Shown piece by piece: positions 14,798-58,198 of a DNA stretch of 64,000 nt. The stretch spans positions 372,001 to 436,000 of the forward strand of contig NBAY01000029.1 in NCBI GenBank assembly GCA_002794775.1, given 5' to 3'. The notes under the pieces are model-generated. The model was not told the origin of the DNA and did not search any database. It saw nothing but the letters and a program-made list of their open reading frames with translations. How positions within the stretch are numbered: position 1 is the stretch's first letter; each line of letters opens with the position of its first letter. The translations under genes and the position numbers were made by a program. Source of the DNA: Porodaedalea pini. Its lineage: Eukaryota > Basidiomycota > Agaricomycetes > Hymenochaetales > Hymenochaetaceae.

Positions 14798-15007
14798 AAG
14801 CATGTAAACAATGTACATTCATAGCAATCTTTGTTGTATGAATGCACAAGAATGAATGGCTGGTTAGCAAACACATCAAGTTGATTTATGTGTTTAGTTT
14901 TTTTTAGTTGCATGAGTTGTTCGATCGCTCTATTGAAGCCTTGTCTTTCATCATCTACTAAAATAAATGAGAATAAAAATAAAGTTGTGGTATGTCTGCT
15001 TGTCTTA

Positions 15008-16085: not shown

Positions 16086-16087
16086 TA

Positions 16088-21187: not shown

Positions 21188-21630
21188 TGTTAGGCGGGAG
21201 TCTGGGAGATGACTCAGACTGGGCAGGCCTCGGCTGACTGTCATCTGGGACATGCTATACTCGAGCGGGGACTTGGGATACACTGTACTCAGGCTAGGTC
21301 ATCGCAGAGGTAAGAGGATTAATACAATATACTCTACTACAGGAGGGGGACACAGTCTCACCTAGGTTGTTGCAGAGGTAAGAGGAAAAGCAGAACAGGT
21401 ATTCAGATGTGATTCCTCTTCCTTATATACAGCAATCACCTCATGAGAACCAGTTGCCCAATTGTCTAAGATTACATAAAGGGAGCGGAATGGAACAAAT
21501 GAAGGTCAGGTGCAAGGGAGTGTGGGAAATGATTGGAAAGATGGTTAAATATAATGAAAAGGGAGCAATTAAAGTAAAAGAAATGGTAAAAAGGAAATGA
21601 AAAGAAAAGGTGAAAGTTCGAGTTCTAACA
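21188..21630 (-). repeat. Downstream (3') LTR of Gypsy D
   Basis: Minus-strand sequence starts TGTTAGAACTCGAAC and ends CTAACA. It contains the TATA-like TATATAAGG motif and matches the LTRs at 26995-27438, 46132-46537 and 51950-52388. Part of it is read through by the long minus-strand ORF that starts at 21283, so that ORF's first 32 codons are LTR-derived. Confidence 0.93.
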
Positions 21631-21639
21631 TTACCCCCC

Positions 21640-24600: not shown

Positions 24601-25280
24601 CTTGTCCATTCGCACTTCTCACACCCTCCTCATCTCTTTCACAACCTCCTTCTCAATCACACATTCCTCTGGGCAGTGGGTGAATTCAATTGAACACATT
24701 TTCCAGTCAACCTCTGGGTTGTGTCGTCAAAGCCAATCATATCCCAGGAATATGTTTGATGATGCCAGGGATGTCACTGCAAGGACAATCTGTTCCTTGT
24801 GATGTCCAATCATTAGCTTGACGTTGATGTATTCCTTGATCAGGCCAGCCTCATTGTGCATGCTGTCAGCATTGAGCACTGTGAGGGGCCTGATATAGCA
24901 CTTGGTCTCCAACCCATACCGCTCGATGAACCCTATGTCGATGCATGATCCCATGCACCCTGAATCCACAAGGGCATGCATATCCACCTCCTTCGTTTTG
25001 CCCTCCATACTGTGTTCAACATTCAGGAGGAGGTCCAGCTGGCGTCTGCCAGTTCCCCTCATGAACAGTTGCTCATACTTATCTTTCTTGTTCACACTGG
25101 TGGGAGCTTTGTAATTAGAAAAGTCATCGATGTCATTTGCATCTAGGTATTGTACAGACAGTTGACTATATTTTATCAAGTCCGGATTCAAAGTCTCTTG
25201 TTCTTCTTGGTCAGTCACCCCAATGGCTACGCCTGACCACTCACAAAATCCTGCAAGTTGACAACCTCTTCATCATCACC
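21640..25280 (-). pseudogene. Gypsy D Pol: protease, RT, RNase H, integrase, chromodomain
   Basis: Collinear with the better preserved Pol at 48.3-51.9 kb. Protease at about 25060-24730 (LVDSGCMGSC). RT at about 24440-23900 with YLNDI in place of YLDDI. RNase H at about 23690-23050. Integrase at about 23000-22000. Chromodomain (YLVKWVGYNEPTWQPE) at about 21860-21700. Stops fall near 24727, 24204, 24440, 23470 and elsewhere. The RT active-site change (Asp to Asn, a G-to-A transition) alone should kill polymerase activity. A relic of a chromatin-targeting Gypsy element. Confidence 0.9.
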
Positions 25281-26402
25281 TTCCTCCTCCACATAATCCT
25301 CCACTGTCGACCTCCGAGTGTCTATGACTTCCTCAAAGGCTGATTCCTTCATCACGCCCAGTTCATCAGCAAGGAGGCAACATTCGCCTGGTGCCATCAT
25401 CTTCAGCATGCGCTGCATGATCGTCTTCCCCTGCAGGCACTTGTCCTTAAAGTGACCCAGCTGGCCACAGATCCAGCATGCCCATCATCATTGTGCCTCA
25501 TTCATCAAGATGTCCATTGGCTGACCAGTACCTCCAAAGGTGACACCGGTCATGTCGTGCTTGTCAACATGGGGAGCTGCAATCTGGCATTGAACCGAGG
25601 GTGCCTGCTGTTGCTGTGGACATGGTGGGGGCAGAAACACATGACCTTGTTGGATGGCCCAGATCTGTTGTTCCCCTCGGTCGATCTCAATAGCCTTCTT
25701 CTTCCAGTCATTGTATGTTGTCAGGACTGGCATTGACCTCAACACCCCACAAACTACCTTGATGTTCATTGCATGTTTCAGGCAGTCACAGATGATGATG
25801 TCATCTGTTAGGCCCGCCATTGTGATAATCATGTCAAGCTTCTGGAAGAACTCATCAGCAGTGAGGTCCTTCTAAACCTTGGTTTGGAACTCTGCCAGCG
25901 CCTTCTCCTTTCAGTTCAGGTTGTTGAATGAGGTGTCCAGTTGTTCCTGGAACCTGGTCCAGCTGTCCATGAAACTTATGACACCATTCATCGTGAACTC
26001 TTCAATGTAGTTCTGTGCCCACATTGATGCATTGCCACCCTTGAGGTAGGAGAGGGTGAGGTAGATCTTGCTTGATGATGAGGGGTACTTTGTAGGGTTC
26101 ACCAAGACAAAGAGAGTGACTTCGTGTCTGAAGTCAAGGTAGTCATTGTCACCAGCAAATTTGCGTGGTTGGGCAACATCAATCAAGAGAGCCTGAGTGA
26201 TGGGGGCATGTGTCACTTGATGAGTGAAGGTGTCCATGACAATGGCTGCGATCTGTTCCAGCTGTTGTTGGCTGAAACCTCTCATCAACATTGCTAGTTC
26301 AGGCATGAACGTCGAAGGTTCCGGAGGAGTTGGTGGTGAAGGGTCCTTATGGGTTTCACGGTATGAACCTGGAATCGGCAGTAAGGTAATGATAGATGTC
26401 AA
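25227..26402 (-). pseudogene. Gypsy D Gag, broken
   Basis: Counterpart of the Gag at 47259-48323. Recognisable blocks: FAGDNDYLDFRHEV, SYLKGGNASMWAQNY, and the zinc-knuckle region near 25480 where the CWIC motif is followed by a stop. The frame is interrupted near 25911, 25875 and 25488. The end overlaps the pol frame as in copy C, but the sequence at the overlap is GGATTTT (25245-25251) instead of the GGGTTTT of copy C. Confidence 0.85.
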
Positions 26403-33000: not shown

Positions 33001-33529
33001 AAGAAAAGGTGACATCATGAAAACAAGACAAATATTACATTTGCATACATTTAATTGTAAGAAATGAAATATGTAAATTATATGCAAGCCTTGTGGGTAA
33101 TATTGTACACCATTACACTGGTCGGCGCTTCTTACAAGGCTTGTAATAATTGTCAAAGCTCACAAGACTTATGGAGATTGTAATTCTCCATGATTCTTGT
33201 CAGACATTACCAGAACTACAATCACATGTAATTACTTGGGACACCAAGAAGAAAATAGAAAAAGTAGCTTTTTGGTTTTCTTTTGCTCCTTTTTTTATTT
33301 TATAATATTTCCTTTCTTAACTGTTTCTCAAATTTCAGGTTTCTTAATTTCTCAGGTTTCATTCTTTTTCTTAGTGCTGCAGGTCTTGAACTCATGACCT
33401 CTCTCTTATAATTTGCTTAAGGATTTCAATATACCACTAAACTATTTATGCTTAAATACAGGTGCAAGGCCAGTACACATGAACAATATGGATCTCATTC
33501 AGACCTGGACTTAGAAAACACGTCAAGAT

Positions 33530-34720
33530 GTGACACATTGTTACCACCTTGCTTGCTTCCACCACCATCTTGCCACAAAATTTCTCCAGTGCCAGGCCAA
33601 CCTGTCCAAGACAATCTGCCAGCAGTGGCACTCACTCTCTGCGGAGGAACACAAATACTGGGACGACCTTGCGAAGCAGTGCAAGAGGAGCATGAAGAGA
33701 TGTATCCTTGGTACGTCTATCAGCCCACACGCACTGTCAAGGAGAAAAAGGGCAAGGCAGAGTCGACATGGCGGGTGGCAGGTGAGGAAGAAGAAGGATG
33801 GGAAGAAGGAGTGTCATGACTGTACCAGTCGAGCAGCTGTGTGCGTGGTTCCAGTGCGCGTGCCTGCAACAGTTCCTTGTGCTCCACCACCAGCACCACC
33901 AGCACCACAAACGTCTCCTCATCTGCATCGACTGCCGACTCGGAGGACTTCAGCGAGCTCGACTCACTCTCCACTGATGGGTCTCTCTATTGTCCATATG
34001 GCTATGCAAACTGCAGGTGCAGCAGCATGCGCGAAGTCGAGATGGCGGACCTCACGGACTTCGACATGAGTGAATCAGAGGGATTGCAGGGCCAGGGTCA
34101 CAGTCAGACGCTCTCGCTCCTGCTGAGCCTCTCGATGCCCTCACTCTCCAGTGCATCTGGTTCTGGATCAGGAGTGAGCCTTGCAATCGACACGCCTCTC
34201 TCGAATTGGGCCCGCTCAGCACGTCTTCCTACTCATACTCGCACGACGGTGGACATGGGCATGGACACAGGACACTTGCTTTCTGTGCAAATCCCGACTC
34301 AGACTGCCCAGAGCCTAGTTCCTGGACCACTTAGCTTTGTCCTCCCGCAGAACCGCCACTCAACGAGCGCACCGGGTACACTGACACCACCGACAATGCC
34401 AGCTGACCTCTACCTGCCTGCGCCTCCTACAATCAAGATCCCGAGGCTGCTTGAGATGGCACCTGGTTCAAACAGTAGCTTGGCGATTGGCTTGCCTGCA
34501 ATGCATGAGGGCAGCGAAGGCATGCAGCAACGCAGATGGATGGCCACGGCCAGCAAAGACAAGGAGAGTTTGGTGGGATGAGTGGTTTCCATTTCCTGAA
34601 CTTGCATCCACAGTCCATGAGCTACAGTATGCCAGGGCAGGTTCCTGGTTTCTCGACTGCTGGCAGCGAGATGCAGGTGTGTTTTTTCTGCTTTTCGTAG
34701 TAGCGCATCTCGATGTCTGA
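33530..34720 (+). pseudogene. HMG-box transcription factor pseudogene (copy 1)
   Basis: The 3' two thirds of an HMG box are recognisable: LSKTICQQWHSLSAEEHKYW at about 33610-33665. A one-frame shift then leads into YPWYVYQPTRTVKEKKGKAE at about 33700-33760. After the box comes a long Ser/Thr-rich tail (TTSTTSTTN, DSEDFSELDSLS, YGYANCRCSSMREVEM) and a Met/Gly-rich C-terminus near 34590-34690. HMG-box proteins of this type bind DNA in the nucleus; fungal relatives include mating-type regulators. The shift inside the box suggests inactivity. Two further fragments of the same gene lie at 40.1 and 52.4 kb. Confidence 0.65.
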
Positions 34721-36041: not shown

Positions 36042-39000
36042 TCAAGGAAGGAGGAGCCAAAGAGCGAGGAGACGCTCGAAGTTTGGCGTGCCAAGACCTG
36101 TCACCTGTATGAGGCAAAATGTCAGCAATCAGTAAGCAGCATAACGCAAGAAGAAATAGGAAGGCGCATAGGGAGGAGAATCCACGCACCGGATCCCAGC
36201 CCTCGGTCGCAGTGAAGCCCGGCGTGCCTGTCAACGAGGAAAGCAGAGTAAAACCAATCAGCATCGGCGCGAAGCGAATCAGCTGACGCGAAACCGAAAG
36301 AAGAAGAAGCTCGGATGAAGTAGAGAATACGACGACAGCAGCGCATGGTCGGGCGATACAAAGTACAGCCGAAGGAGATAGCCAGAAGCCGGTGTGCATG
36401 TGCGACGTGTGATGTGGCACAGAGAGACCATGGAAGGGCGACGGAGAAAGCGAAGAATGGAGAAAGATAGACAGAGAAGTAACACACCACAGCCTTGGTT
36501 CCCGCCCATCGTGATGTCATTGAACGCGACGCGGAACGACGCGCTGTAGATCGTGGGGTTGATGAAACCTGCGTCACGTGCAATGCAAGAGAAAGTCAGT
36601 TTAACGTGCCTACTTTCAATGCTAGGGTAGGCGCACCGACAGGACCCTTCCCGACGGCGAGCCGCGCGTCGTTGACGAGCGTGATGATAGAAGCAGTCGT
36701 TGGTGCGGATGCGGATGTGCCGAATACGAGATTGAAATCTGTTGGTAGGGGATTTTTGAATACCTAGCAGACACAATTGAGACGAGACGTAGCTTACCTC
36801 CGTCAACTGTTTGGCACACCGAACTAAGATCAGCCAACATCCCAAGAAAACGTGCTTAAATCAACGTACTTGCAATGACATAGTTTGCTCTACATCCTCC
36901 AGTCGCAATCAACACTTCGCCAACCATGCGTGTCAAACGGAGACTCACCCATTCGCACTAAGATCCGGGAACGCACGACTCGTGCCCGAATTATTAAACT
37001 GCTCCCCGCTAAACGGCGGCGGATGATTCTTGAGGAAGCTCGCAACGTCCCCCTTCTGGTAATCAGGGATGCTAAAGATGTTCGAGAAGCCGCCGCCAGA
37101 GAAGATGACCTGTTCGCATGCGCCTTCCGGATCGTGCACAGTACTGTTCGGATTCACCTGCGTCGCACCAACGCTGTTCGATTCGTGGCAGTTATAATGG
37201 TTATGAATAAAAGTATTGGCGAGCAAGAACAGAGACAATGAGACTTACGAGGTGACGAATGGACAGCCACTGGGGAAAGACTGTCGCTTACATTAGAAAA
37301 CATCCACGAATCGAGCACTAGAAAGACTCACGGGGTTGAAGCGAGTTCCATCATCAGACTCACTCCCTGTCATACAGTCTCAGAACATCAATGCAAGAAA
37401 GCCACTGAAGATAACAATACGCACCGTCCGCATTAAGGCAGACGCCGCCATTACCAGCAACGCCAAAGTCGCCGGAGCTGTACAGAACCGTGGTCTATCG
37501 AGACTCAGTTAAGTCGGAAGGAGTAAAGAAAGCATGTTTAGAAAGAAAAAAAGAGACTTACGCCCATGAGCCCAATCTTTCCGTACTCCGTGCACTGACG
37601 CATCGCAGATCGCGCCGTGATCGTGGCTTCGTCTTGTCCATACGAGATAGAGACGACATTTGGAGGCTAGGTGGAGCAAGTGAGTCGAATCGTCACAGTC
37701 GCTCAGACAGGGATATTCACCTTGATGATACCGCAACTTTCGGGGCCTACAAGCAATAGGGTCAGTCTAGAAGACCGTGTGAGAAGAGTAGATGCGCACC
37801 GTCGAAGCCACCCGGGAGAGGATCGGGGTAGATGCCATCCTGTGGATAAGGTTGACGTTAAAGAAGGATTAACCTTTGCATTGATCTGCATACTTGCGTA
37901 GGATCATCGCCACCTGTATGTCTCAGCGTTAGATTATGGTCGTCAAAGGAATCAAAAAGGTATGTATACCTTCGAACGTGCAGAAGGACGCATCAACCGC
38001 ATCCAGCCAGTTGTCAAAGCCCGCGCCCTCGACGAGATCACCAGTCTGGAGGAGCTGGACGGGCTGCGGGTTCGTAAGGACCATCGCATACTCGAGGTCG
38101 AGGTCGCTCTCGCCATTAAAGTCGAACGACTGATTCGTCGTCTGCGCAACACCACCATCGATGCTCACGAACAGGGGCTTCTGGCCTTGCTGGCTCGCAG
38201 AAAAGTTGTGGAAGAACATGTCAAGGTCCGACTGGAGGAATGCCTGTGGCGTGAACTCGACGACGGCAAACGTGTTCTTTTGCGTCGACACGGGCTTGTA
38301 GTTAATGTTGTACAGCGTCTGCAAACAGATGGGAGTGATGAACTCGTCGCAGTTTGCGAGAGTGAGATTTGTGCTCCCGTCCACCTTACGGCCGTTCGTC
38401 TTCGGCCCGTTGAAGCTCGATGGGCTTCCGAGTTTGACCGGTGGTGTGACGGTTGCCGCACGCCTTTCGAGGTTCTTCGGAGCCGGAAGACGCGCATTGA
38501 AGGCAGTCGTCGGCTTGATGACGTCAATGTGCGACGTGAGGTGCTCCGGGACGTGGTACGACTCGCATCCGACGCGTTCTGCGCCATCCGCGTCCTCAAA
38601 GACGTGGTATTCCGCGTGCAGTAATCTCTCCACTTCAACCACGCTTGCATTCAGTTCGAGCCAGCCGCGGCTCGCACTGAGGCGCAGACGCTCACGCGAT
38701 ACGCCACTCGACATCAGCCAGTCCGTGACGGCGCTGACGGTCTCCTCAGACGGCGCAAAGTGGTCAACGATGCGTTGTGCCGTCCAATGCCGTCCATACT
38801 CGGGCGACTCAGGGTGCGCGACAGCGTTGAGCGCGGCCTCGAGGGTGTGCGTGTTCTGGTGGACAAGTCCGAAGCGCAAGGGGAGGACAGCATCCGGCTC
38901 AAGACGGCGAGAGAAGCGCCAACCGCGGGACTCCGGGCTGAAGGACCGACGCTCGTGCAGGACGGGCGGAGACAACTGCAGCGACGTGCCCACTGCGTGA

Positions 39001-39050
39001 GAGGCAAAGGCGACGAACGCGAGAGCGAGGACACCAGAGAGAGCGAGCAT
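36042..39050 (-). CDS. Secreted sedolisin (S53) serine protease, multi-exon
   Basis: Starts at ATG 39050 with a signal peptide (MLALSGVLALAFVAFASHAVG). A long propeptide follows (EAALNAVAHPESPEYGRHW is typical of pro-kumamolisin). The catalytic Glu/Asp motif GESDLDLEY lies at about residues 312-320, at the end of the 1.1-kb first exon. After many short exons come SISYG, SSGDFGVAG (oxyanion-hole Asp, about 37455-37480), SGGGFSN, the catalytic Ser in FGTSASAPT (about 36697-36722), the calcium-site ITMGGNQGC (about 36500) and GWDPVTGLGTPNF. The stop is at 36042-36044. Introns are about 50 bp with GT-AG ends. All catalytic residues are present, so it looks functional. Sedolisins are acid proteases, often tripeptidyl peptidases, acting in the vacuole or outside the cell. 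The borosin gene lies 2.3 kb upstream on the same strand. Confidence 0.9.
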
Positions 39051-41370: not shown

Positions 41371-42698
41371 TCAGGCGAGCAAAAGGATGATAGCCGCTGA
41401 AGGCTCAGTCGCTGAGACGACCGCGTCAACGGACATCTCGCGACCGTCAGTGATGTCGGAGGGGGTTGCTCTCATCACTGCATGAACAGGACCAGCTAAA
41501 TCCATATTAAGTGCAGCCTTCTCTTGCGCGGAAAGCCCCTCGGTCGCTTCGACGACTGCCTTTGTATTGGCTCTGTACTTCTCGAAGAGTTTCGGGTTCA
41601 GTGCAAGGTCAGTCATGAGCTTCTTCATGCTACGCGAAGCGTGGAGTATCTTGTGATCTTTCGGAGCCGCGTAAGTGTCAATTTTGGCGATAACATCCTT
41701 CTCGCGAGGGCCGTAAGCAGGCACAGTGGTAAACTTGGTCCCAGTCCATCTTGAAGGCGGATAGAGGCTTACCGGACGTGCTGACGCGTCGTCCATCCCC
41801 AGTTTCTTAGCCATTGCATCGAGAGGCGGGCTTATGTCACGAGGTGGGATGTAGAAGGTCGATGTGGTATTGAACTGCTTCACCACAGCGTCCTTGCGGA
41901 GATCGGCGATGGTGAATTTGTCCATCGTCGTGACCGACTGGGGAAGGACTGCGCCAATGTAGTGCACGACTGTGTGGCTAGGGCCAAAGTCCTTCTCGAG
42001 GCGATCAACAAGTAAATGGAACTTGGCGTTCTAATAATATCAAGAAGCGCATTAGTCAAGGGAGGGCGGGATTGAAGCATGTACTTACATCAAAAACCAT
42101 CGTACCGACACCGACTCCACCGACTTGCCAGATGATGTTGTGAGTCGAGGCGTTTAACGGTTTATTTCTGACGAGGAGGTCCGTCGCTTCGTATGATGTG
42201 CATCCGTGAGTGGCGGGGTCGAATCCAAGATCAGCAAACAGGTAATCTTCAGCGGAAACCCCTGGGAGCATGCGAGCCTTGTATCCTTCGTCACGCGCTA
42301 TGGCAATGGCCCTGTGCGAGGGGGACACGAAGACGCCTGGGTGCCCATAGAAGACGCCGAGGACTGTGTGGCCCGCTCTGACATCTCTCAACATGACCTT
42401 TGATGTGAATTAGCTGAGCTCAAGAAAAGAGTCAAGGGGAAGAACCTGCCTCGCACATCTGGACATACGAGTCATATCTGACCTTGTTCGTGTCATAGAA
42501 TATGGTCAAATCAAAGCAGGTTCCACTGGCGTTGTCCTGAATGAATGCCTCGGTGGCGGGGTCACTGACAATGTAGTAGACTCTGTCGGACTCCTTGATA
42601 TATGAGAGTGTTTCGAGAGTGATATGAGCGATGCTGGCAATGCCTGATCCAGCGATGACCAAGGTGCCATTCTTCGTAGTGGCGGTAGAGACTGGCAT
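41371..42698 (-). CDS. Borosin precursor: self-modifying alpha-N-methyltransferase with C-terminal core peptide
   Basis: Three exons (42698-42450, 42397-42089, 42030-41371) join in frame to 405 residues, close to OphMA (about 417). The start is ATG 42698. Residues 11-23 ([13 protein letters not shown]) form the SAM-binding entry of a class III (tetrapyrrole-type) methyltransferase. DPATEAFI (46-53), [15 protein letters not shown] (99-113) and [14 protein letters not shown] are hallmarks of the OphMA family, as are TFYIPPR and the helical clasp region ([18 protein letters not shown]). Of the residues linked to OphMA catalysis, Arg74 (R72), Tyr68 (Y66) and Tyr78 (Y76) are kept, but Thr65 stands where OphMA has Tyr63. 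The protein ends ...[12 protein letters not shown], a hydrophobic tail expected to be the methylated core; no follower peptide is visible. The first intron (52 bp) is GC-AG, the second (58 bp) GT-AG. In this family the enzyme methylates backbone amides of its own tail before proteolytic release. No stop or frameshift was seen. Confidence 0.93.
42398..42449 (-). other. GC-AG intron in the borosin gene
   Basis: Exon 1 must end in phase 0 after the codon for Glu83, and exon 2 must start at GTC ATG for the conserved VMLRDVR block to be read. The only junction meeting this is GAG|GCAGGT ... CAAAG|GTC, a GC donor with good consensus. The nearby GT would put exon 2 out of frame. Confidence 0.75.
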
Positions 42699-42851
42699 GG
42701 TCAAAAAGGGGCGTCAAACAGATGTGAGGTGTTAGATGCTGAGGAAACATTGACCTTTTTATAGCCTGGCTGCACTTTGTGTATACTGCGAGGGATGTAT
42801 TATTAGAGTAAAACGATACCAACTGCAAGTGCAGCATCGCGTAATCGAAGG

Positions 42852-44170: not shown

Positions 44171-44175
44171 TATTA

Positions 44176-45023
44176 CAGCCTTTTTCATAAGTCCTGCGAC
44201 ACGTGCATGTCACGTGAAATGAGCCGCGTCAGAGCCAAAGTGTCGAAAAATTAGAATGAATGCCTATTTTCTCTGTGAATTCTGCACAGTACCTGCTCAT
44301 TAAGTACTCAAAAAAAAGGCACGGTTCTCAGGAGAATAAATATGTAAAATATGGAGCAATAAATTGACTGTGTAGGCAGGTTGAGATCAAACAAGTGCAG
44401 CTGGTCTGTTCTCTCATAAATTTTCACTAAGATTCAAAAATTATAGCTCCCCTACATCTATCTATAAAATTCTTTCCTGTATCTGTAAATTAAGTATATG
44501 ACTATACCAACATCTCCTGCAAGTTTGAAGCCAATCCATTCAGTATTCATGGTCCAGCAGCAAGATTTGTGTTCTACTCTGCAAGACCTGTTGTGAGAAA
44601 AGGAGGTGGAAAGAGCTTGAAGTGGAACACAAATCTTGCTGCTGCACCATGAATACTGAATGGATTGGCTTCAAACTTGCAGGAGATGTTGGTATAGTCA
44701 TATACTTAATTTACAGACACAGGAAAGAATTTTATAGATAGATGTAGGGGAGCTATAATTTTTGAATCTCAGTGAAAATTTATGAGAGAACAGACCAGCT
44801 GCACTTGTTTGATCTCAACCTGCCTACACAGTCAATTTATTGCTCCATATTTTACATATTTATTCTCCTGAGAACCGTGCCTTTTTCTTGAGTACTTAAT
44901 GAGCAGGTACTGTGCAGAATTCACAGAGAAAATAGGCATTCATTCTAATTTTTCGACACTTTGGCTCTGACGCGGCTCACTTCACGTGACATGCACGTGT
45001 CGCAGGACTTATGAAAAAGGCTG
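44176..45023. mobile_element. Palindromic MITE, 848 bp (copy 1)
   Basis: Arms of about 395 bp, inverted and almost identical, around a centre of about 55 bp. Ends CAGCCTTTTTCATAAGTCC in inverted orientation; TA on both sides (44174-44175, 45024-45025). The arms carry ACACGTGCATGTCACGTGA near each tip. No coding capacity. A second copy of exactly the same length lies at 62488-63335 with the centre in the opposite orientation. Confidence 0.92.
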
Positions 45024-45053
45024 TAATATTCAGAAAGTTCCTTATTAATATTA

Positions 45054-46131: not shown

Positions 46132-46537
46132 TGTTAGAACCTGAACTCTCACCTTTCCCTTTATTTTCCCCTTTCCTTTTCCTTTTCTTTTAATCACTTC
46201 CCACACTCCCTTCATATGACCTTCATTCGTTCCATTCCACCCCCTTTTATGTAATCTTAGACAAAGGGGCAACCGGTTCTCACGGGGTGATCACTGTATA
46301 TAAGGAAGAGGAATCGCATCTGAACACCTGTTCTGCTTTTCCTCTTACCTCCGTGACGACCTAGGTGAGACCGCGTCCCCCTCCTGTAGTAGAGTACATT
46401 GTATTAATCCTCTTACCTCCGTGACGACCTAGTCTGAGTACAGCGTGTCCCGAGTCCCGCTCGAGTATAGCACGTCTCAAACAACAGTCAACCGAGGCCT
46501 GCCCAGTCCAAGTCGTCTCCCGGACTCCCGCCTAACA
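46132..46537 (+). repeat. 5' LTR of Gypsy C
   Basis: 406 bp. It lacks about 33 bp present in the 3' LTR: a CTTTTCATTATATTTAATCATC block in the T-rich part of U3. Otherwise nearly identical. Contains GTATATAAGG at 46296-46305. Confidence 0.95.
46296..46305 (+). promoter_or_regulatory. LTR TATA box (Gypsy C)
   Basis: GTATATAAGG sits within U3 of the 5' LTR, and the same motif is found in the 3' LTR at 52147-52156 and in both LTRs of copy D. It is the likely start-site determinant for the genomic RNA. Confidence 0.6.
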
Positions 46538-47258
46538 TAAAAGCAGAACCCACCCAGGCTCGTCCCCAGCGTACGTCGTCGCTGTCGACTCGCCTTCACT
46601 CGGTCTAGAGGAGCGCTCCCCTCGACAGACTTGACGTGTAGAACCCCTAAACGACAAACCCTCAACCCTGCCTGGACGTTTTCGGACGTTCGTGTATTAC
46701 GTAAACTTACAACCGACCTTTCCCGACCCTGGCTCTCCGCCTCTCCCTCTGGTGGAGGAACCATCTGACCTGGACGTGGGTAACACACCGTGTACAGTCC
46801 TCGACGTCGTTGTCGATTGTGCTCTCAGCCTCCTCCTTCCGATTGGTCATCAAACTCGCCAACGAACCTGTCCTTCGCCAGCGTAACATTCATCCGGACA
46901 ACCAGCCCCTCCCCGTTCCCCCTCCGGTCTAGTCAACATAGATCTTACTGAGGAACAGCAGCGGGCCCTCCCTCATTCGTCGCGCTACGACACCGAACGA
47001 CAGTCGTACGTAGCCGACGATAGAAACCACGTCACCCATAACCTCTGGTGGAGTGACATTAGACGCGCCTGGTACTCAACTGAACCATCAGGCGAAAGAA
47101 CTCGGTGGGTGCCTCGAACCCCTCGCGCCCCATCATCCCCTACCGTTTCAACATCGTCGGTCGTCCTTCCCAGTGAACCAGGAGGATACCGAACGCCCCG
47201 CAGAGACTCATCGCCGCCGACGCCCCCTGAACGCCTAACGCACACACCCGTACCAGCG

Positions 47259-48323
47259 ATGTCGGAGGGCTTTACCCAAAGGCAACAACAAGAAATCGCG
47301 GCGATCGTAGCGGCCGCCTTCACCCGCGTGGCAACGAATGCCCCTGCGACCCAAGCCCCAGCTCCCTCAATTGACGTCGCCCGGCCACGTGAATTCGCTG
47401 GCAGCGATGACTACCTCGACTTCAAGCGCGAAGTCCTTCTCTTTGTCTCGGCGAACCCCGCGAAGTACCCCTTGTCGTCGAGCAAAATCTATGTCGCCCT
47501 CTCTTACCTCAAGGGTGGCAACGCGTCGACGTGGGCGCAAAACTATGTCCAGGAATTCACGACGAGTGGCGTTGTGAGCTTCACGGATGACTGGACCAAG
47601 TTTCAGGAACGACTGGATGCCTCCTTCGACGACCCGAACAGGAAGGAGAAGGCGTTGAAGAAGTTCCGAGACAAGGTCCAGAAGGATCTCTCTGCCGACG
47701 AGTTCTTCCAGGATCTCGACGTAATCATCAAGGCAGCAGAGTTGAAGGACGACAGCGTCATCTGCGACCGCCTGAAGCGTGCGATGAACATCGAGGTGGT
47801 CCGTGGTGTGTTGAGGTCGACGCCCGTACCAACGACGTACGAGGCGTGGAAGAAGAAGGCTGTCGAGATCGATCGTGGTGAACAGCAGATCTGCGCCATC
47901 CAACGAGGCCATGCACTACCCCCCGTGCGCCCACAGGTCCAGCAGGCGCCGCCTGTCCGCCGTCCGTTCGCACCCCCCCACGTCGACAAGCGCGATGCGA
48001 CTGGCGTTACCTTTGGAGGTGCTGGTCAGCCAATGGACGTCTCGATGAACGAGGCGCAACGACGATGCGCGTGCTGGATTTGCAGTGGGCTGGACCACTT
48101 CAAGAACAAGTGCCCGCAGGGGAAACCGATCATCCAGCGCATGCTGGAACTGATGGCGCCAGGCGAACGTCGCATCCTCGCCGACGAGCTCGGTGCAATG
48201 AAGGAATCGGCATTCGAGGAAGTCGTAGACACTCGAAGGTTGACTGTGGAGGACTATGTGGAGGAAGAAGACATTGACGAAGAGGTCATCGACTCGCAGG
48301 GTTTTGCGAAGGGTCAGGCGTAG
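47259..48323 (+). CDS. Gypsy C Gag
   Basis: First in-frame ATG at 47259 (MSEGFTQRQQQ). The frame is open upstream to about 47109, so an earlier start is possible. The gag domain (FAGSDDYLDFKREV, SYLKGGNASTWAQNY, ADEFFQDLDVI) is followed by a CCHC knuckle CWICSGLDHFKNKC (CX2CX4HX4C) and an acidic tail (VEEEDIDEEVID). It assembles the particle and packages RNA. Its end overlaps the pol frame by 46 bases, where a slippery heptamer lies. Confidence 0.9.
   Translation: MSEGFTQRQQQEIAAIVAAAFTRVATNAPATQAPAPSIDVARPREFAGSDDYLDFKREVLLFVSANPAKYPLSSSKIYVALSYLKGGNASTWAQNYVQEFTTSGVVSFTDDWTKFQERLDASFDDPNRKEKALKKFRDKVQKDLSADEFFQDLDVIIKAAELKDDSVICDRLKRAMNIEVVRGVLRSTPVPTTYEAWKKKAVEIDRGEQQICAIQRGHALPPVRPQVQQAPPVRRPFAPPHVDKRDATGVTFGGAGQPMDVSMNEAQRRCACWICSGLDHFKNKCPQGKPIIQRMLELMAPGERRILADELGAMKESAFEEVVDTRRLTVEDYVEEEDIDEEVIDSQGFAKGQA
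48299..48305 (+). promoter_or_regulatory. Candidate -1 frameshift heptamer (gag to pol)
   Basis: GGGTTTT in the register G GGT TTT fits the X XXY YYZ rule. It lies inside the only stretch (48278-48323) where both the gag frame and the -1 pol frame are open, 16 bases before the gag stop. Pol has no nearby ATG. The pseudoknot or stem that usually follows was not established. Confidence 0.55.
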
Positions 48324-51300
48324 TCATCGGGACGACTGACCAAGAAGAACAAGGGACTTCGAATCTAGATTCGCTAAAATATAACCAACCGTCTGTACAA
48401 TACGTAGACGCAAACGACGTCGATGGTTTTTCCAATAACGAAGTCCCCACCGGTGTGAATAAAGATGAGGAGTACGAACCGCTGTTCATGAGAGGAACTG
48501 GTGGACGCCAGCTGGACCTTCTCCTGAACGTCGGACAAAGCGTAGCGGGCGAAGTGAGAGAGGTGGACGCACATGCTCTTGTGGACTCGGGGTGTACAGG
48601 ATCGTGCATCGATGTGAGGTTCGTCGAACGGTATGGGTTGGAAACGAAACGTTACATCCGACCCCTAGCAGTGCTCAACGCCGATGGCACGCACAACGAG
48701 GCTGGGTTGATTGAAGAATACGTCGAAGTCGAGCTCATGATCAGCCACCACAAGGAAAGGATTGTCCTTGCGGTAACGTCCCTAGCGTCGTCAAACATAT
48801 TCCTGGGGTACGATTGGCTTCAACGTCATAACCCTGAGGTCGACTGGAAAACGGGTTTGATTGAATTCACTCGTTGTCCAGAGGAATGTACGATCGAGGG
48901 AGAGCCGGTAGAGGACCTAGGCAAGGTAAAGGAGGTAGTGGAACAGATGAGGAGGGTGAGTGAGACGCGAATGGACAAGGCGTCCTGGCCCGCATACCTC
49001 AATGACTATGCCGATGTTTTCAGCGAAAAAGGCTTTGAGAAGCTGCCGGAACACCGACCCTGGGATCATGTCATCGACTTGAAGCCCGACTTCAAACCGA
49101 GCGACTGTAAGATCTACCCGCTCACGCCGACGGAGCAACAGTCACTCAAGGACTTCCTCAATGAAAACTTGAAGTCTGGTCGCATCCGACGATCGATATC
49201 ACCCATGGCATCACCTTTCTTCTTCATTAAGAAAGCCGACAAATCGCTACGCCCGATCCAGGATTACCGTAAGCTCAATGATGGTACGATCAAGAACAAG
49301 TATCCCCTTCCTCTCATTGATGAACTCGTCAACAAGGTCAAGAAAGCGAAGTACATCACTAAACTTGACCTTCACTGGGGGTACTACAATATCCGGATCC
49401 GCAAGGGTGACGAATGGAAGGCAGCGTTTTGCACGAACATGGGCCTCTTTGAACCAACGGTCATGTTTTTTGGCCTTTGCAATGCGCTGGCCACATTCCA
49501 GGCTTTTGTCAACCATATCTTCAAGGACCTGATCTATGCTAACCTGATCATTGTATACCTCGATGACATCCTAATCCTCTCAGAAACCATAGAGGAGCAT
49601 ATCGACACGTCGAGGCGCGTACTCCAGATCCTCCGAGAAAATGGCCTGTACCTGAAGCCGGAGAAGTGCGAATTCGATGCCAAAGTGGTCAAGTACCTCG
49701 GTCATATCATTGGCAACGGCGAAATCAGGGCTGACCCGGCAAAGACGGACGTGATAGCGAACTGGCCTGTCCCACGAAACCTCAAGGAGCTACAACAGTT
49801 CCTTGGCATGGGAAACTGGCTGAGACGATTTATTAAGGACTACAGCAAGGTGGTCTGACCGTTGACGTCGTTAACAGGCAAAAAGGACTGGGTATGGGAG
49901 ACTGAACAGCAGGAAGCGTTTGAGGAGCTGAGACGACGTCTCTGCTCACCTCCAGTCCTAGCCATCGCCAACGACGAGGGCCCTTTCCGCGTGGAGGTGG
50001 ACTCGTCAAACTTTGCACTCGGCGGCGTGTTGTTGCAGAAGCAGGAAGGAAAGTGGAGGGTGATCGCCTACAGATCAGAGGTGCTCGAACCAGCGGAACG
50101 AAACTACGAGATCTATGACAAGGAGATGCTCGCAATCGTTTCAGCGCTCAAGGAGTGGCGGCAGTACCTCCTTGGCGCTCGCCACAAGATTGAAATCTGG
50201 TCCGACCATGCCAACCTCACCTACTTCAGGTCAGTGCAGAAGCTGAGCTATCGTCAAGCTCGCTGGCGAACCGAACTTGAAGAATTCGACTTCCACCTCG
50301 AACACAAGTCGGGGAAGACAATGGGCAAGGCCGACTTGCTGTCACGCAAGGCGGGCTATGATCAGGGCAAGGATGACAACGACGGCTTCGTGTTCATCAA
50401 GGACAAGTGGCTGAACCGTGGGGTAGTGCGAACATCGCGCGATGAAGTGGTGGAACGAGTGGGTGAAGCGCAGAGGGCGCAGGACAAATCGGAGAGACCG
50501 ACGAACATGACGGAAGTCGACGGGTTGTGGCAGATGAAAGGCAAGATATACGTTCCATCGACGATGAAGGAGGCCGTGTTACGAGAGTGCCACGACTTGG
50601 TACTCGCCGGTCATCCAGGAGCATCGAAGACAGTAGAGCTCGTCCGTCGCGATTTCTGGTGGGCATCGATGTTCTCCGATATCCGAGCATACGTCCGAGG
50701 ATGCGACCGCTGTCAATGGATGAAAGCCTTAAGAACGTCGAGGTCGAGGCCGCTTCACCCAAACGCAGTCCCTGAAGGTCCTTGGGAAATCGTCATGGTC
50801 GACCTAATCGGAGAGCTCCCGGAATCTAAGGGACACAACGCGATCTGTGTCTTTGTGGACAGGTTCTCAAAGCAGATACATGTGATCCCGACAACGACGA
50901 AATTGTCAGCGGAGGGTATGGCTCAGTTATACCGCGACCACGTCTTCCGTCTCCATGGCCTACCAAAGAAGATCATCCACGACCGAGGCACGCAGTTCGA
51001 TGCATCGATGATGAAGGAGCTGTACAATCTCCTGCACATCGAAGGCAACCCGTCAACCACGTACCACCCACAAACGGATGGTCAGACGGAACGTGTCAAC
51101 CAAGAGCTCGAACAGTATCTCAGACTCTTCATTAACCATCGGCAATCAGACTGGAAAGACTGGCTCCCTCTCGCAGAATTCGCTTACAATAACCGCAAAC
51201 ACTCGGCGACGAAAATGTCACCCTTCTACGCGAACACTGGACGTCACCCCAAGAGCTTCGACACCGTACGAACTTCTTCTGCCAATATGTCGGCGGAAGA

Positions 51301-51938
51301 ATTCGCAAAGCACATCAAGGAGACTCATCGTGTAGCAAAGGACAATCTGGTCAAGGCGGCAGAGGACATGAAGCGCTACCACGACCGGACAGCAGGGGCT
51401 TCAGTGGAATACAAGGCTGGAGACAAGATTTTCCTTGATGGGCGAAACATCAGCACAGACTCACCGACGAAGAAGCTAGCGGACAAGTGGTATGGTCCCT
51501 TCGAGATCGTTGACAAGGTGGGAGCGAGCGCGTACAAGCTCAAACTCCCAAAACGATGGAAAAAGGTCCACCCGGTCTTCAATGAGGCCCTGCTGAAACC
51601 CACAGTTGAACCGTCCTTCGACAGTCAGAAACAACAGCCGCCGCCGCCACCTGACATCGTTGACAACGAGGAAGAGTACGAGATCGAGGAAGTCATAGAC
51701 TCGCGTCTGCACTGAGGGAAACTACAATACCTCGTCAAGTGGGTTGGCTACAACGAACCGACGTGGCAGCCCGAAATGGACTTTGGCGAGAACGCAAAGG
51801 AGGCGATCGCTGAATTCTATCGAAAACACCCCGGTGCCCCTCGAAAACTCGACATTCCTCGCCAACAACTTCGCCCACGCTTCATCGACACCGAGTCAGA
51901 CGACCGCGATCTTGGCTGGTCGGGACGCCCAGCCTTGA
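48306..51938 (+). pseudogene. Gypsy C Pol: protease, RT, RNase H, integrase, chromodomain
   Basis: One frame from the gag overlap to a stop near 51948, interrupted only by TGA at 49856-49858 and 51713-51715. Protease LVDSGCTGSC at about 48575. RT about 49080-49620 with YLDDI at 49556-49570. RNase H about 49960-50340 (EVDSSNFALGGVL). H2C2 zinc domain about 50580-50715. Integrase core with MVDLIGELP, HDRGTQFDA and the Glu of GQTERVNQELEQ. Chromodomain after the second TGA (LQYLVKWVGYNEPTWQPE). Copy D has CGA at the position of the second TGA (21867-21869) and CAA at the first, so both stops are best read as decayed CGA. With two codons restored by nature it would be complete; as it stands Pol is cut after RT. 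Confidence 0.92.
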
Positions 51939-51949
51939 AGGGGGGGTAA

Positions 51950-52388
51950 TGTTAGAACTCGAACTTCCCCTTTTCTTTATTTTCCCTTTTCCTTTTCCTT
52001 TTCTTTTAATCGCTCCTTTTCATTATATTTAATCATCTTTTCAATCATTTCCCACAATCCTTTCACATGACCTTCATTCGTTCCATTCCGCTCCCCTTTA
52101 TGTAATCATAGACAAAGGGGCAACCGGTTCTCACGAGGTGATCACTGTATATAAGGAAGAGGAATCGCGTCTGAACACCTGTTCTGCTTTTCCTCTTACC
52201 TCCGTGACGACCTAGGTGAGACCGCGTCCCCCTCCTGTAGTAGAGTACATTGTATTAATCCTCTTACCTCCGTGACGACCTAGTCTGAGTACAGTGTGTC
52301 CCAAGTCCCGCTCGAGTATAGCACGTCTCAAACAACAGTCAGCCGAGGCCTGCCCAGTCCGAGTCGTCTCCCGGACTCCCGCCTAACA
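51950..52388 (+). repeat. 3' LTR of Gypsy C
   Basis: 439 bp, TGTTAGAACTCGAAC ... CCGCCTAACA, directly after the polypurine tract. Full-length version of the family LTR, with TATA motif at 52147-52156. Confidence 0.95.
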
Positions 52389-52800
52389 GGTTCACCATCT
52401 CGACTTCGCGCATGCTGCTGCACCCGCCGTTCGCATAGCCGTATGGACCATAGAGAGATCCGTCAGCGGAGAGCGAGTCGAGCTTGCTGAAATCTTCCGA
52501 ATCGACAGTCGATGCAGATGAGGGGGCACTCGTGGTGCTGGTGGTGCTGGTAGTGGAGCACAAGGAGCTGTTGTAGGCACGCGCGCCGGAACCGTGCACA
52601 CAGCTGCTCGACTTGGTACGGTCACGACGTTCCTTCCCATCCTTCTCCTTCTTCACCTTCCCGCCCGCCGTCGACTCTGCCTTGCCATTCTTCTCCTTGA
52701 TCGTGCGTGTGGGCTGATAGACGTACCAAGGATAGAACTATTCATGCTCCTTCTTGCGTTGCTTCATGAGACCGTCCCAGTACTTGTGGAGTAGAGGCCA
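52389..52800 (-). pseudogene. HMG-box gene fragment (copy 3), cut by Gypsy C
   Basis: On the minus strand, KYWDGLMKQRKKEHE, a stop, then FYPWYVYQPTRTIKEKNGKAE form the end of an HMG box. The same Ser/Thr tail as in copy 1 follows (TTSTTSTTSAPSSAST, YGYANGGCSSMREVEMVNL). The text stops exactly at the LTR end (52388), where copy 1 continues with TDFDMSE. The Glu-to-stop codon (TAG) in the box and the insertion show it is dead. Confidence 0.65.
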
Positions 52801-53220
52801 GTTAGACGAACTGTCTGTATACAGGGGCTACTCACCAATTTGAGTGGCATGAGCTTATCTGAGCTCTGTTTCGAGCTATGTTTTGACTAACATGCTCGTT
52901 ATATCCCAAAGACTATGTGGCCTTACTTTTGATGTGCTTGACAGATTTGCAACCGAGGGAGAGGCAGGCGATGGTGGTGGGAGAGAGCAAAGTGCAACGA
53001 CACGTCGAGCACGTCTCGATGCGTTTTCTAAGTCCGCATTTTCTAAGTCCGCTAAGCTGATGCGTGTCCTTCTACACCATCAGCATCCCAATTCTCAAGA
53101 ATCCACTTCTTTAATTACCCCGGCTGCATTCGTGTACACTATCTCTCCCGCTGTCTCCACCTTCTCCCACTCCCCGCACCCACTCTCAGCACTGCAGCAA
53201 GCGGCGCCTCAAACGTTGAA
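52801..53220. other. Spacer upstream of the cyclin gene
   Basis: No gene recognised. CT-rich tracts at 53090-53190 just before the cyclin ATG look like a fungal promoter/5' leader. Confidence 0.4.
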
Positions 53221-54240
53221 ATGACCCCAACTCCCGAAGATGCACCCAGCAAAAGCAAACTACGTTTGATCGGCGAGTCAAGCATTCCAATTGTCGGCAA
53301 CCTTCCAAGGCATGCACGCAAAGTCAATAGATAATTTGGTTTTGTCCTGTTTCCCTAACTGATGTGCTCAACTCTAGATCAAGCTGTGAAAAGCCTGACC
53401 GATATTTGGCTCCCCGAGAACATCCCAGTCGTCTTTTCAACTCAAACAGATATCACGGCGGTGACAAAACAGCCCCCGTCTCTCAACGCCAACCACTAAA
53501 ACCTCAATTGGTTCAACTTCCTCACCCTGTTCACCCATCACGCTTTCCTCGCCTCTTCCCCATGCCCCATCCGACCCACCACACGCTTCAACATCAACGT
53601 CAGTCGTTTTCCCGTCTGCCTTTCTCGCCCAGAATTTCGGCAGCAATGCCGCAACCGTCGTGTCCAAGAAGGACCTCATTCCGATCGAAACATTCGTACA
53701 GGTCCTCCACTGTTCACGCGCAACATGCAGGAGAGCAAGAGAGGCTCGGCACGGGAGTGAGAAGTGAGCCGGAGTTGGATAAGAGGATCATGAAGGAAGA
53801 CGAGGTGTCTGCATCGTCGAAGGCGAATACCTCTTTGGACACGTCCAACCTCTGCGGCCTTCCGACGGAATTGATGTCAATGGACCCGTTCGATGCATAG
53901 TGTGTGCCGACAGTCCTCCAGATGGACGCTTCGCTTCCATTAACTCAGTAGATGCAGACTCAAAGGCAGTCTAACGACAAGCGTCGCAAGATTCCGGCAA
54001 AACAGCTCACGCCGCACCTCTTCCCTTGCCGCTCCTCTGCCCGTGGCGCATCTTCCTCACTGCGCTCATTCTAGCATCAAAATTCTTACAGGATCAATGC
54101 TATTCGACTCATGGATGGGCAAAGCTCTCCAGTCTCCCACTGTGGGAAGTTGGACACTGCGAACGTGCATTCGGCGATGCGTTTGGGTGGCATCTCTCGG
54201 TCGGCAAGAGCTCAACGCTGCCGCAGGAAGAGAACTCGCG
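53221..54240 (+). pseudogene. Pho80/Pcl-type cyclin, probably damaged
   Basis: Blocks of the fungal Pcl cyclin appear in order on the plus strand. DQAVKSLTDIWLPENIPVVF lies at about 53378-53440 after a CTCTAG acceptor. KKDLIPIETFVQVL and CSRATC lie at about 53666-53730. CPWRIFLTALILASKFLQDQ, CYSTHGWAKLSSLP and CERAFGDAFGWHLSVGK lie at about 54040-54200. The latter are the cyclin-box helices that bind a Pho85-like kinase. The first block is in another frame than the rest and runs into TAA near 53499. The segment 53731-54040 is not recognisable, so either introns were missed or the gene is decayed. The N-terminal exon may be the ATG at 53221. Confidence 0.7.
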
Positions 54241-55104
54241 CAGTATGCAACACATGAAAAGCAAGGATACAATCGCATCTGGATCATCTCCGGTTTCTGC
54301 AATGCGCAACGTGATGCACTTTCCGAGTCCACCTTGTCGGATGCAGGTGCAAGTCCGGAGTTTGGCCGTGCGCAGACGAAGGCAGGCATGGCAAATAGAG
54401 CACTTAGATGTGCTGCGACACTGCCAGACGATGTGGCAATGCGGAGCGTGCCGCTCCGCTATTGATCCCCAGGATCGTTGCCATTCTCGTTTGCAGGTCC
54501 ATCTCAGCTCACCAGCACGCGGCGCTTAGTGCACAGTAAACATTGCTTTCTTCTGCATTTACGTCACAGACACCCTTGCCTTCTGATCTGACGCCTGTCC
54601 CACTTGAAGAGCCGATACAGCGCCTTTCGTATTTGCCGCTCTCGGTGAATCAACGCTCAAGACGCCAAGTGCGGCATTGTGCAGCTACAGTTATAACTAC
54701 AATTTCAACAACGGTGCCAATGGTGTGTGGAGTTCCGCACAGAGCACGGACTCGAACGATTCGTCCGACTCGAGCTCGAGCGTCGGGTCGGAGGCCATCG
54801 CAACTCCGCCAGATATACCTACGGCCGTGTGGCTTGCAGGCGATGTCGTGTGTTCCGACCTGGGTGCAGCAAAGGGCCACCGACTCGTCCCCATGGATGT
54901 CTCAGACCCGGTTGCGTGGTATGCGCCGGTGCTCTCATGGGCGTTCCCGGGAACAGGACCGTGATCAGCGGCATGGGCGGAATTGGATACGGAAACGGGA
55001 TTGACGGACAGGGACAGGCATCGCTGTCCATGTCCATGCTGGATAGCCTCACGACTGTTGATCTCGGGCTTGGGCTTGGGCTCGGGCTCGGTGGTCATGT
55101 ATAG
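54241..55104 (+). other. Possible C-terminal part of the cyclin gene
   Basis: Several overlapping frames of Ser/Asp- and Gly-rich composition (SDSSDSSSSVGSE near 54760; LGLGLGLGLGGHV ending at 55104). They could be the low-complexity tail of the cyclin. Not provable by reading. Confidence 0.25.
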
Positions 55105-55729
55105 GCTGGTGCAACGACTTTCGCGACTTATGGATCTGGATGTTTAGGATATGGGTGCGGGCTACTGGTCTGGGCTACGCCGAGTTGGACTGTGCAGAGC
55201 TTGAGGGCCTTTCTTCACTGGTTGTCATGCACTTGCTCACGATTGCAGAGGTCTTTGCTCTTGTCAGTATGGCTTTGGCGCGCCTTCCACCTTGTATTCT
55301 CTTCTCTCCTCTCTTCTTAATTTCCTAGTAATACATACGTCTCTTACACCTTTCCCTCCAACCGTACACCCAACTGTCTCATTTCATCCATCCATGCGTG
55401 CAGCGCGACTCGCTCATTCGCCATACACGGTCTCCTCTTCCTTTTCTCCCCTCAATTTTGTACTGCGGCTCGTATCTTCCACAGATCTCTTTTTTCCTTC
55501 TCTTTACTTCATTGACTCAACTCTTGTTACTTTTATTCTTTCATGTGCTGTGAAGTATTTTCTCCGTATTATACCATTGTCTTGTCTCACCATCCGCTCT
55601 TCAGCCTTTCGGCTCTCAAGTTTCAGTGCTGGATTGGCGGTCCCAAAGGGGTGGTGCGAGCTTGAACTCCCACCACATGTGCATCTCTTATGAAAACAGA
55701 GCAAATCTTAGACAGTGATTGAAGAGCTG

Positions 55730-56200
55730 GTATCTGAAATACAAGTGGATGATCAGGCTTTTGGCCTTGTTATCAGACAAAAACACTATGATTAGTGCAT
55801 CACAGTTTAGACATTAGATTTTGGAAGGACATATAAGTGGCATACAATACAAGAAAAATAAATGCACATTTCCTGTAAGCATCTATCTAACTTGTATTTA
55901 CCTTGTATCCTAATAAGTTTGTGATATGCAGACTGACATGCTGACACCGAACATATAAACCTGTGAAGAGCCTTCCGGCCTGATTGTCAGAAATAATCAG
56001 TAGAATAAATGCATTACAGCTGAAATGGTAGACTTCCTGAGGACATATAATTAGAATACAAAATGATAAAAGTATTTTTTTTTCTTGTAACTATCTGCCT
56101 ATCTTGTATACACCTTGTATTGTACAAAAACTCTTGTAGCAGACTTGTATTCGACTCAAAGACATAACAAGCTGACTAACAGACTTATATTACCTTACAT
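55730..56200 (+). repeat. Tandem pair of diverged ~240-bp units
   Basis: 55730-55968 and 55969-56200 align head to tail. Both contain GAAGAGC, CCTGATTGTCAGA/GCCTTGTTATCAGA, a GCATTACAG-like block, GGACATATAA and CTTGTAT..ACCTTGTAT. The flanking 55105-55729 and 56201-56700 hold nothing else that I can name. Confidence 0.5.
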
Positions 56201-58198
56201 GGTATACAAGACTATACAGGCGACGCGACTTTTTCGTGATGTTTATGAGAGTGAAGTGAGAAAGCAGAGAGCACCCAAAATCACATGAGCACAAATACTT
56301 TGCAAACAGCTGTAAGACTGCCGCCTCCGTCACTTACGTGCAAGACGGATAGGCCTTTGTGAGATCTAGGGATATATCTTATCCACACACAACTCAGTCA
56401 ATAGAGAATGAAGTACAACGCAGATTCAAGGCCTCCGTGAATTTGAAAATGCTGGCAATGCAGACTCACTTCTCTTCCTGTCACCTCGGATGAGTGTATT
56501 CATGCTCCGCTTCTAGGAAGAACTCTCATATTAGGCGTTCCAGTCAAAACAATTTGACCTCAAGGTGTCCATGTACTCGGCACGCTCCATGTGTTCGAGT
56601 GATATATTTCTTCTCTGTCACAGAGAATGGCCCTCCTATGGCTAAACGTGTTCGTGGCATTTCCAGTTGTGTGCATCTCCTATCATCGTATGCATGTCAT
56701 TCGTACCGCGTGCGTCTAGGTGGACATGCTTAAGTCGCTAATTTGGCTGATCATGATACTTCCTTACTGGGAGTTTAATCAGGGGTTTTTCTGCGCCGCT
56801 CTTGCGTAATTTGGCTGCAATGCATTACAAAGGCAGGAACAGCTAATGCAAACGGAATCGTCAGTCCTTTGAAGTCGGACTTTGAGCAACAGCTCTGTGT
56901 CAAGATTCCAGTCGTGAGCGATATTTCTTCACCTCGTCTTGGATCCCGTGTATCGTTCTGTGCTATTTTCCACACCTTTGATTTGTTGGAGGACCGCCTT
57001 CTGCAATGAATTTCGTGATAAGCTACTGTGCAGTCCGTAGGAAGTGGTATACTGTTATCAGAAGATAGTTGATATGCCCATGACTGCACGACACCCCTTG
57101 GTATCTCAAAAGCCCGCTAAATGTTACTCTTGGGACTGAGTACTAGTTACTGAGAGCGATGAAACTGCCCCTTGTTGATTAGCTGCGCCTGATATCGAGG
57201 TTTACATCGCGTGATGCGAAGGCGGACGATAAGGGTCTGAAAATTCCGTATAGTGTGTCAGGTGTCGTAGAGATTCTATGTCCTTCTGGGCCTCCGCAAC
57301 CACACTGCCAAAGGCGCTCCAGGTAAAGTCAGTTTATCCGCACACCCGAGCTACAACCATATGCATCTCCGTGCTCTATATTTGGCCTTGAAGCTAATTG
57401 TGAAAATTTGTCCATTCTATGCTCGCATCTACTCCTTTATGTCCCCCTCTTCCCCCGATCTAGTCCTTGGCTTGCAGTGCATGTGAGATGTCTGCAATAG
57501 CCGACCCAGTAAGGTCAGAGAAGGCAGCTACATATGTTGCATAAATCAGGGGGAACATTCAGTGTAAACACGTACTTCGATGCTTTACAATCGCGGCTGC
57601 GAAGTTCATTCTGCGTGTCTGCGTCCGCAGACTTCCCACTGTCAAGCGAACTCCGAGGCCATCCAGAGTTTCTCTACTTCCTCCTCCAACAAACCTAAAC
57701 ATGCTCCAGCGCCATCATAAATTGTCCTCGCACCGCGAAATTGAATATGAAACTGCTAAAGACACACCAAAATGACAACTGACCTGGTGACCTGAGCACA
57801 AAAGGATGGGAGTCTATACTCTCAGAGCTGACGCGATCCGAGTCGCCATTTACAGAAATGACGACTGAGCTCTTAATGCCTTTCATGGATAACTTTCCGG
57901 TCTCCTCCCGGACTCCTGTGTGCCGGCGCGGGAGGATCTTTGAATAGAAGTAGCCATTGCGTTTGTTATACGGTTTTGTATTACTAGCAGTCTGCCATTG
58001 GTGGAGATGTGCCGAATAGGGAGTATTTGGTGCTTGTACTCCTGACATGCATATGTACTACTACTATGATAGTATGATGTAGTTTGGCGACCCGCCACTC
58101 GCATAAGATTCGAGGAAAGTCACTCCCACAGTGTCGCCCACACGTGACATGACCGTTCGCGTCTCTCTTTCAACGCGCTAACCGTTGCCTTCGCGTCC
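56201..58198. other. No gene firmly recognised; exonuclease upstream region
   Basis: Two minus-strand ORFs (56775-57089, 57695-58048) have no recognisable family. About 100 bp at 57580-57690 recur in diverged form at 61010-61110. CACGTGACATGAC just before the exonuclease start also precedes the duplicate at 39.7 kb. Confidence 0.35.

Follow-up and report, generated by a model that had tools for sequence, protein, structure and literature searches.

Does the minus-strand locus at 41371-42698 of a 64,000-nucleotide stretch of Porodaedalea pini DNA (hereafter the window) hold a working gene for a borosin, a precursor that methylates the backbone of its own C-terminus, and what peptide would such a gene yield? 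The initial annotation, made from the letters alone, had read here a complete borosin gene of the OphMA family with an unfamiliar core, and had taken its intactness among broken neighbors as a sign of selection. From the analysis presented here, the best explanation as a whole appears to be a fused type I borosin precursor, orthologous to the catalogued pocMA, whose core would be methylated and released; we place the probability of this reading at about 0.88, the type I label being taken from the name of the pocMA record and not from the criteria that separate types I-III.

Gene model

The coordinates first proposed for the gene, its three exons and its length of 405 residues were all recovered on the minus strand (Table 1), and the five motifs that had been quoted for its product were found at residues 11, 46, 99, 127, and 244. 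The exons add up to 249 + 309 + 657 = 1215 bases, that is, 405 codons, and the ORF runs without stops or frameshifts when the first intron is read as GC-AG. Intron 2 is ordinary, with a good GTAAGT donor and a 3' end TTATTAG. The junctions of intron 1 are GAG/GCAGGT ... AAAG/GTC, such that the donor is the rare GC; introns of the GC-AG type are a recognised minor class. A GT-AG splice of intron 1 can be drawn if both of its ends are moved, which would give a protein of 402 residues in which a conserved 12-residue stretch becomes MCEADVRAG. We rejected it as the main reading, since it deletes a stretch whose longer form is kept in 8/8 of the relatives that cover it in the alignment, including the 405-residue pocMA. 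Because all these relatives have the longer form, the GC-AG reading, which gives the same length and the same junction as pocMA, was preferred, and the 405-residue model is favoured over the 402-residue one.

Table 1. Features of the borosin locus and of its neighboring peptidase gene (positions in the window).
Feature	Position	Strand	Description
Borosin precursor gene	42698-41371	minus	3 exons; ATG at 42698, TGA at 41371-41373
Exon 1	42450..42698 (249 bases)	minus	residues 1-83; opens the alpha-N-methyltransferase domain and contains Y68, R74, and Y78
Intron 1	42398..42449 (52 bases)	minus	GC-AG; preserves the frame and a stretch conserved in relatives
Exon 2	42089..42397 (309 bases)	minus	residues 84-186; methyltransferase domain continues and contains FYGHPGVF (Y100), LPGVSAED, and Q174
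Intron 2	42031..42088 (58 bases)	minus	GT-AG
Exon 3	41374..42030 (657 bases)	minus	residues 187-405; completes the methyltransferase domain, then clasp region and core
Predicted core peptide SAAIILLLA	41374..41400	minus	residues 397-405; reaches the C-terminus; register from the alignment with OphMA
Stop codon TGA	41371..41373	minus	
TATAAAAA, possible TATA box	42756..42763	minus	about 58 bases 5' of the ATG
S53 sedolisin gene	36042..39050	minus	15 exons in a hand-built model; 648 residues; apparently intact

Relationship to pocMA and other borosins

The 405-residue protein was searched against a collection of 5.8 billion proteins, in which 7994 candidates were scored, 2029 of them had E <= 0.001 and the best 120 were listed. 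Comparison with fungal borosins had been proposed as a check in the initial annotation. The best match among the candidates scored was P0001, whose UniRef/nr record carries the name 'type I borosin cyclic peptide precursor pocMA', with 391/405 residues identical (97%), no gaps and a phmmer E = 6.1e-260. We take the source species of pocMA to be Porodaedalea chrysoloma. Among the matches listed, the next full-length ones are 66% identical, partial Rhizopogon records reach up to 74% identity over about 60% of the length, and many of the named ones come from Agaricomycetes.

The protein matches the Pfam family TP_methylase (PF00590; E = 2.1e-15) and three solved fused enzymes, namely MroMA1 (7twk; residues 6-403 aligned, E = 5.7e-154), dbOphMA (6mjg; residues 4-389), and OphMA (5n4i; residues 6-388). 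With the E values obtained for pocMA, MroMA1, and TP_methylase, a chance match is excluded. The methyltransferase domain is shared also with SonM of Shewanella oneidensis (PDB 7ltc; E = 3.5e-35), a type IV, split borosin in which the precursor is a separate peptide according to the part of PMC8429565 that treats it, whereas the two are fused in this gene. Hence the assignment to the OphMA family, made originally by inspection, is well supported by the Pfam, solved-structure, and pocMA matches: the gene is predicted to encode a fused precursor of that type, and most likely represents the pocMA orthologue in a close relative of the pocMA source. The borosin precursor is real and apparently functional, of a known kind, and this member of it a close variant of the catalogued pocMA.

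The likeness to pocMA extends to the absence of a follower, the differences amounting to 14 substitutions. MroMA1 of Mycena rosella (P0017), 58% identical, also has a hydrophobic tail, although of a different sequence, TAFIIIYIVQG. OphMA of Omphalotus olearius, the omphalotin precursor (P0083), and the Dendrothele bispora precursor (P0064), respectively 44% and 46% identical to this protein, share with it the fused order of methyltransferase, clasp, and core and the register of the core after a proline; they differ from it by a 12-residue core and a follower (SVMSTE or SVVSSA), which is not seen here.

A search of the 53-Mb genome gave three borosin-like matches, which are the three exons of this gene, so it is the sole borosin-like gene found. 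TP_methylase itself matched four times, on C2, C33, C123, and the contig of the gene, C29, with low sensitivity, as only 1/3 of the borosin exons registers. No second haplotype copy or paralogue was found with a 7-kb query, which matched only itself in full among 16 matches in all; of the others, one was a 71% match of its sedolisin part on C37 and 14 were short. The literature searched for pocMA, MroMA1, or borosin together with Porodaedalea returned no paper on this gene; in the papers listed, 'pocma' occurred solely with a meaning from medicine or veterinary science.

Predicted core and conserved residues

The C-terminal tail aligns without gaps under FPWVIVVGPIG of OphMA. P396 falls opposite P399, and S397 opposite W400, the position at which the core of OphMA starts. 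In P0083, which seems to be a PDB chain, the reading at this place is VVGPIG. Because the tail is in register with the omphalotin core, we predict the core to be SAAIILLLA, which probably corresponds to residues 397-405; in this register, a clasp region followed by a C-terminal hydrophobic core is found in one protein. The nine residues include neither Gly nor Pro, carry Ala at 398, 399, and 405, and reach the C-terminus with no follower behind them. The core had been described as unrecognised; its sequence does differ from that of the pocMA core, SAALILLLV, at 2/9 positions (400 and 405), but it is close to this catalogued core.

Conservation was read from an alignment of 62 rows, this protein plus 61 relatives of 380-425 residues drawn from matches 1-94 on the list of 120 (33/94 were dropped on length). 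Among the last seven residues of the protein, 5/7 are V/I/L/M/F/W, above any of the 395 seven-residue segments starting at residues 1-395; among the last 12 the count is 5/12, and half is reached by 35/61 relatives. We considered a polar end to be missing when the last five residues held no D, E, N, Q, K, R, H, S, T, P, or G, and by this rule it is missing in 11/61 relatives and in this protein too.

For OphMA, the section of Song et al. (2018, PMC6108569) on these variants describes methylation as undetectable after purification in R72A, R72K, Y76F, Y98A, and Y98F, and as reduced in Y63F, Y66F, Q172A, and W400A. The catalytic residues are conserved in the P. pini protein, where R72, Y76, Y98, Y66, and Q172 of OphMA correspond to R74, Y78, Y100, Y68, and Q174. 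Among the residues required for methylation it is Y63 that is not kept, being T65 here and T also in MroMA1; T occupies this column in 17/62 rows. The Y66 column has Y in 61/62 rows (one gap), the R72 column R in 60/62 (two gaps), and the Y76 column Y in 59/62 (two gaps and one D). At the columns conserved in at least 95% of the 62 rows, the protein fits the consensus at 68/68.

None of the 14 substitutions relative to pocMA falls within residues 46-218, and an unchanged run of at least 173 residues appears in 0.5% of random placements of 14 differences. The last 15 residues hold 3/14 of them, and as many fall there in 1.2% of random placements. It appears, then, that change is restrained in the enzyme and more readily accepted in the tail, which would be expected of a precursor; this is a comparison of proteins, blind to synonymous sites, and not a test of selection. 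The unchanged residues 46-218 are consistent with purifying selection, as far as protein differences alone can tell.

Surroundings of the gene

The nearby sedolisin gene has GT-AG ends at 14/14 introns of its model, whose exon boundaries were placed by inspection with the motifs of the family as a guide and include one 9-base exon, such that its details are uncertain. Its product matches the Pro-kuma_activ domain, falls just below the cut-off for Peptidase_S8 (20.9 vs 21.8 bits), and resembles tripeptidyl-peptidase 1; the closest relative is from Sanghuangporus baumii (P0121, 85%), the other of the two best named matches being from Phellopilus nigrolimitatus. As a maturation protease it was rejected, since it looks secreted, judging by eye from a hydrophobic N-terminus. 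Nor is there any hint of linkage between the sedolisin and borosin genes, as the closest S. baumii relatives are listed on separate contigs, P0121 on one of 3.23 Mb and the borosin relative P0005 on one of 0.55 Mb. The sedolisin is thus probably not part of the borosin pathway. Nor did we retain a biosynthetic cluster: the nearest P450 match on C29 (343498-344097), among 92 of 280 candidates scored, is about 69 kb off, outside the window, and was not counted.

The remark that nearly every neighbor is broken, judged here on selected frames, holds for the stretches of retrotransposon and repeat but fails for the adjacent sedolisin, which reads as complete. Because the sedolisin also reads as intact, the borosin gene is not alone in having stayed whole among repeats, and the earlier argument for selection drawn from its intactness is weak.

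The repeats themselves are varied. A near-perfect palindrome of about 858 bases has copies at 44171-45028, about 1.5 kb upstream of the borosin gene, and at 62482-63341. As a single strand, the first copy folds at -494.5 kcal/mol, whereas 20 shuffled versions average -88.6. The family occupies at least 40 distinct near-full-length places in the genome, including the two copies in the window, each matched on both strands (80/92 rows, with 40 of 530 candidates scored, hence a lower bound), and partial copies adjoin on C128 and C1; its appearance is that of a fold-back or MITE-type element. Upstream of the borosin gene there is also a Ty3/gypsy retrotransposon (46186-52388), whose terminal repeats, each about 353 bases long, are 95.8% identical. 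Its three long frames match gag, protease, reverse transcriptase, RNase H, and integrase, in some cases just below the cut-offs, and a relative that has diverged to 79% is found at 21188-26192. Two inverted-repeat elements were seen at 15004-16089 (arms of 495 bases, 98% alike) and 16125-16722 (arms of about 228 bases, 87% alike). A high-copy repeat upstream of the borosin gene, at about 53000-56240, is up to 98% identical to its other copies; at least 97 matches were counted with 40 of 245 candidates scored and, apart from the window itself, all fell in that part of the query. Within it, the frame 53975-54526 matches Cyclin (23.7 bits, cut-off 21) and is possibly a captured gene piece. The frame 33515-34069 is like an HMG box by eye, with no Pfam match, and 33650-34052 is 85% like 52388-52788, just past the retrotransposon, on the opposite strand. 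No RNA family was matched at the gathering score.

Discussion

By analogy with characterised relatives, two copies of the precursor would interlock as a dimer, and each methyltransferase domain would bind S-adenosylmethionine and take the C-terminal tail of the other copy into its active site. There, as expected for the family, the backbone amides of the hydrophobic SAAIILLLA would be methylated stepwise, starting at the N-terminal end, in the N-to-C order that the relevant part of PMC8429565 states for borosin methyltransferases; a protease cut in the clasp region would then free the core. OphMA trimmed to end in WVIVVG is still methylated at two positions (PMC10947093), therefore a follower is unnecessary for methylation. 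The survey of Quijano et al., as summarised in PMC11285071, includes more than 50 putative methyltransferases, with 11 precursors expressed heterologously.

Several points sit less comfortably with the borosin reading. The position of Y63 is held by T65, although T is common there; S397 stands in the place of OphMA W400, whose change to Ala lowered methylation; a GC donor is required for intron 1; and, of the last 12 residues, only 5/12 are V/I/L/M/F/W. An ordinary tetrapyrrole methylase that bears a hydrophobic tail by chance and yields no peptide would agree with the name of the Pfam domain; we hold this to be extremely improbable, as the match to solved peptide N-methyltransferases spans the clasp region and, with MroMA1, most of the tail, the residues that bind the core are conserved, and the other TP_methylase matches of the genome sit elsewhere. 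A decaying or silent gene, in which GC is a damaged GT donor and splicing gives an inactive protein, either of 402 residues or frameshifted, deserves somewhat more attention, given that donor, the available GT-AG alternative, and surroundings rich in retrotransposons and repeats. It nevertheless seems unlikely in a gene that keeps the strongly conserved columns without exception and the long unchanged run relative to pocMA, shows neither stops nor frameshifts, and agrees with pocMA in length and junction under a splice type that, although minor, is recognised.

Within the preferred reading of a pocMA-like precursor, it is harder to say whether the product would be cyclic or linear. In the parts of PMC7878506 on clustering, OphMA, LedMA, and DbiMA1 continue for a few residues past the core and are accompanied by a clustered prolyl oligopeptidase, OphP being the one used in the characterised omphalotin pathway. 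A head-to-tail N-methylated macrocycle like omphalotin, closed by a prolyl oligopeptidase encoded elsewhere in the genome, is thus conceivable here. The source name of pocMA speaks of a cyclic peptide precursor, and the 53.27-Mb genome (201 contigs) has two Peptidase_S9_N matches, both on C8, and 12 Peptidase_S9 matches over C31, C35, C47, C69, and C87. However, an exon-by-exon search, which may miss weak pieces, gave no match to Peptidase_S9_N (PF02897) or Peptidase_S9 (PF00326) on C29, in contrast to the clustered enzyme of the OphMA and D. bispora systems (PMC7878506, PMC12235650, in the parts concerned), and the predicted core ends at the C-terminus, so it has no bond behind it to cut. The passages of PMC12235650 on OphP substrates bear on both sides: the enzyme does not recognise the follower and cuts after N-methyl-Gly, and in unrelated substrates it cuts after Pro or N-methyl-Ala, the latter compatible with the Ala residues of this core; yet it prefers N-methyl-Gly, whereas the core here is without Gly or Pro, it failed to close a ring after Val, N-methyl-Val, or Ala in those unrelated substrates, and it yielded nothing but linear products where a nine-residue ring was expected. 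We regard the macrocycle as a tentative possibility, with the balance somewhat against it.

A linear product seems about as likely as the macrocycle. The missing follower, Gly, and Pro, the length of nine residues, the lack of an S9 match on C29, and the linear-only outcome with OphP make a linear N-methylated peptide a live alternative. Even in the omphalotin pathway, as the part of PMC12235650 on release states, the protease that acts on the clasp still awaits identification. We therefore put forward, as a speculation that may well prove wrong, that a nine-residue core without a follower, which the OphP route could not close, would end up as a linear peptide with several N-methyl groups and a free C-terminus, that one cut by a protease other than a clustered prolyl oligopeptidase would suffice to release it, and that such a one-gene, one-cut pathway would be common to a group of Agaricomycetes precursors whose tails likewise lack a polar end.

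The P. pini gene offers a second natural core close to the pocMA type, such that the effect of two core changes on methylation can be compared in near-identical enzymes. With neither a follower nor a clustered macrocyclase, it would also be a tractable system in which to ask whether the products of some fused fungal borosins are linear N-methylated peptides and which protease sets these free.
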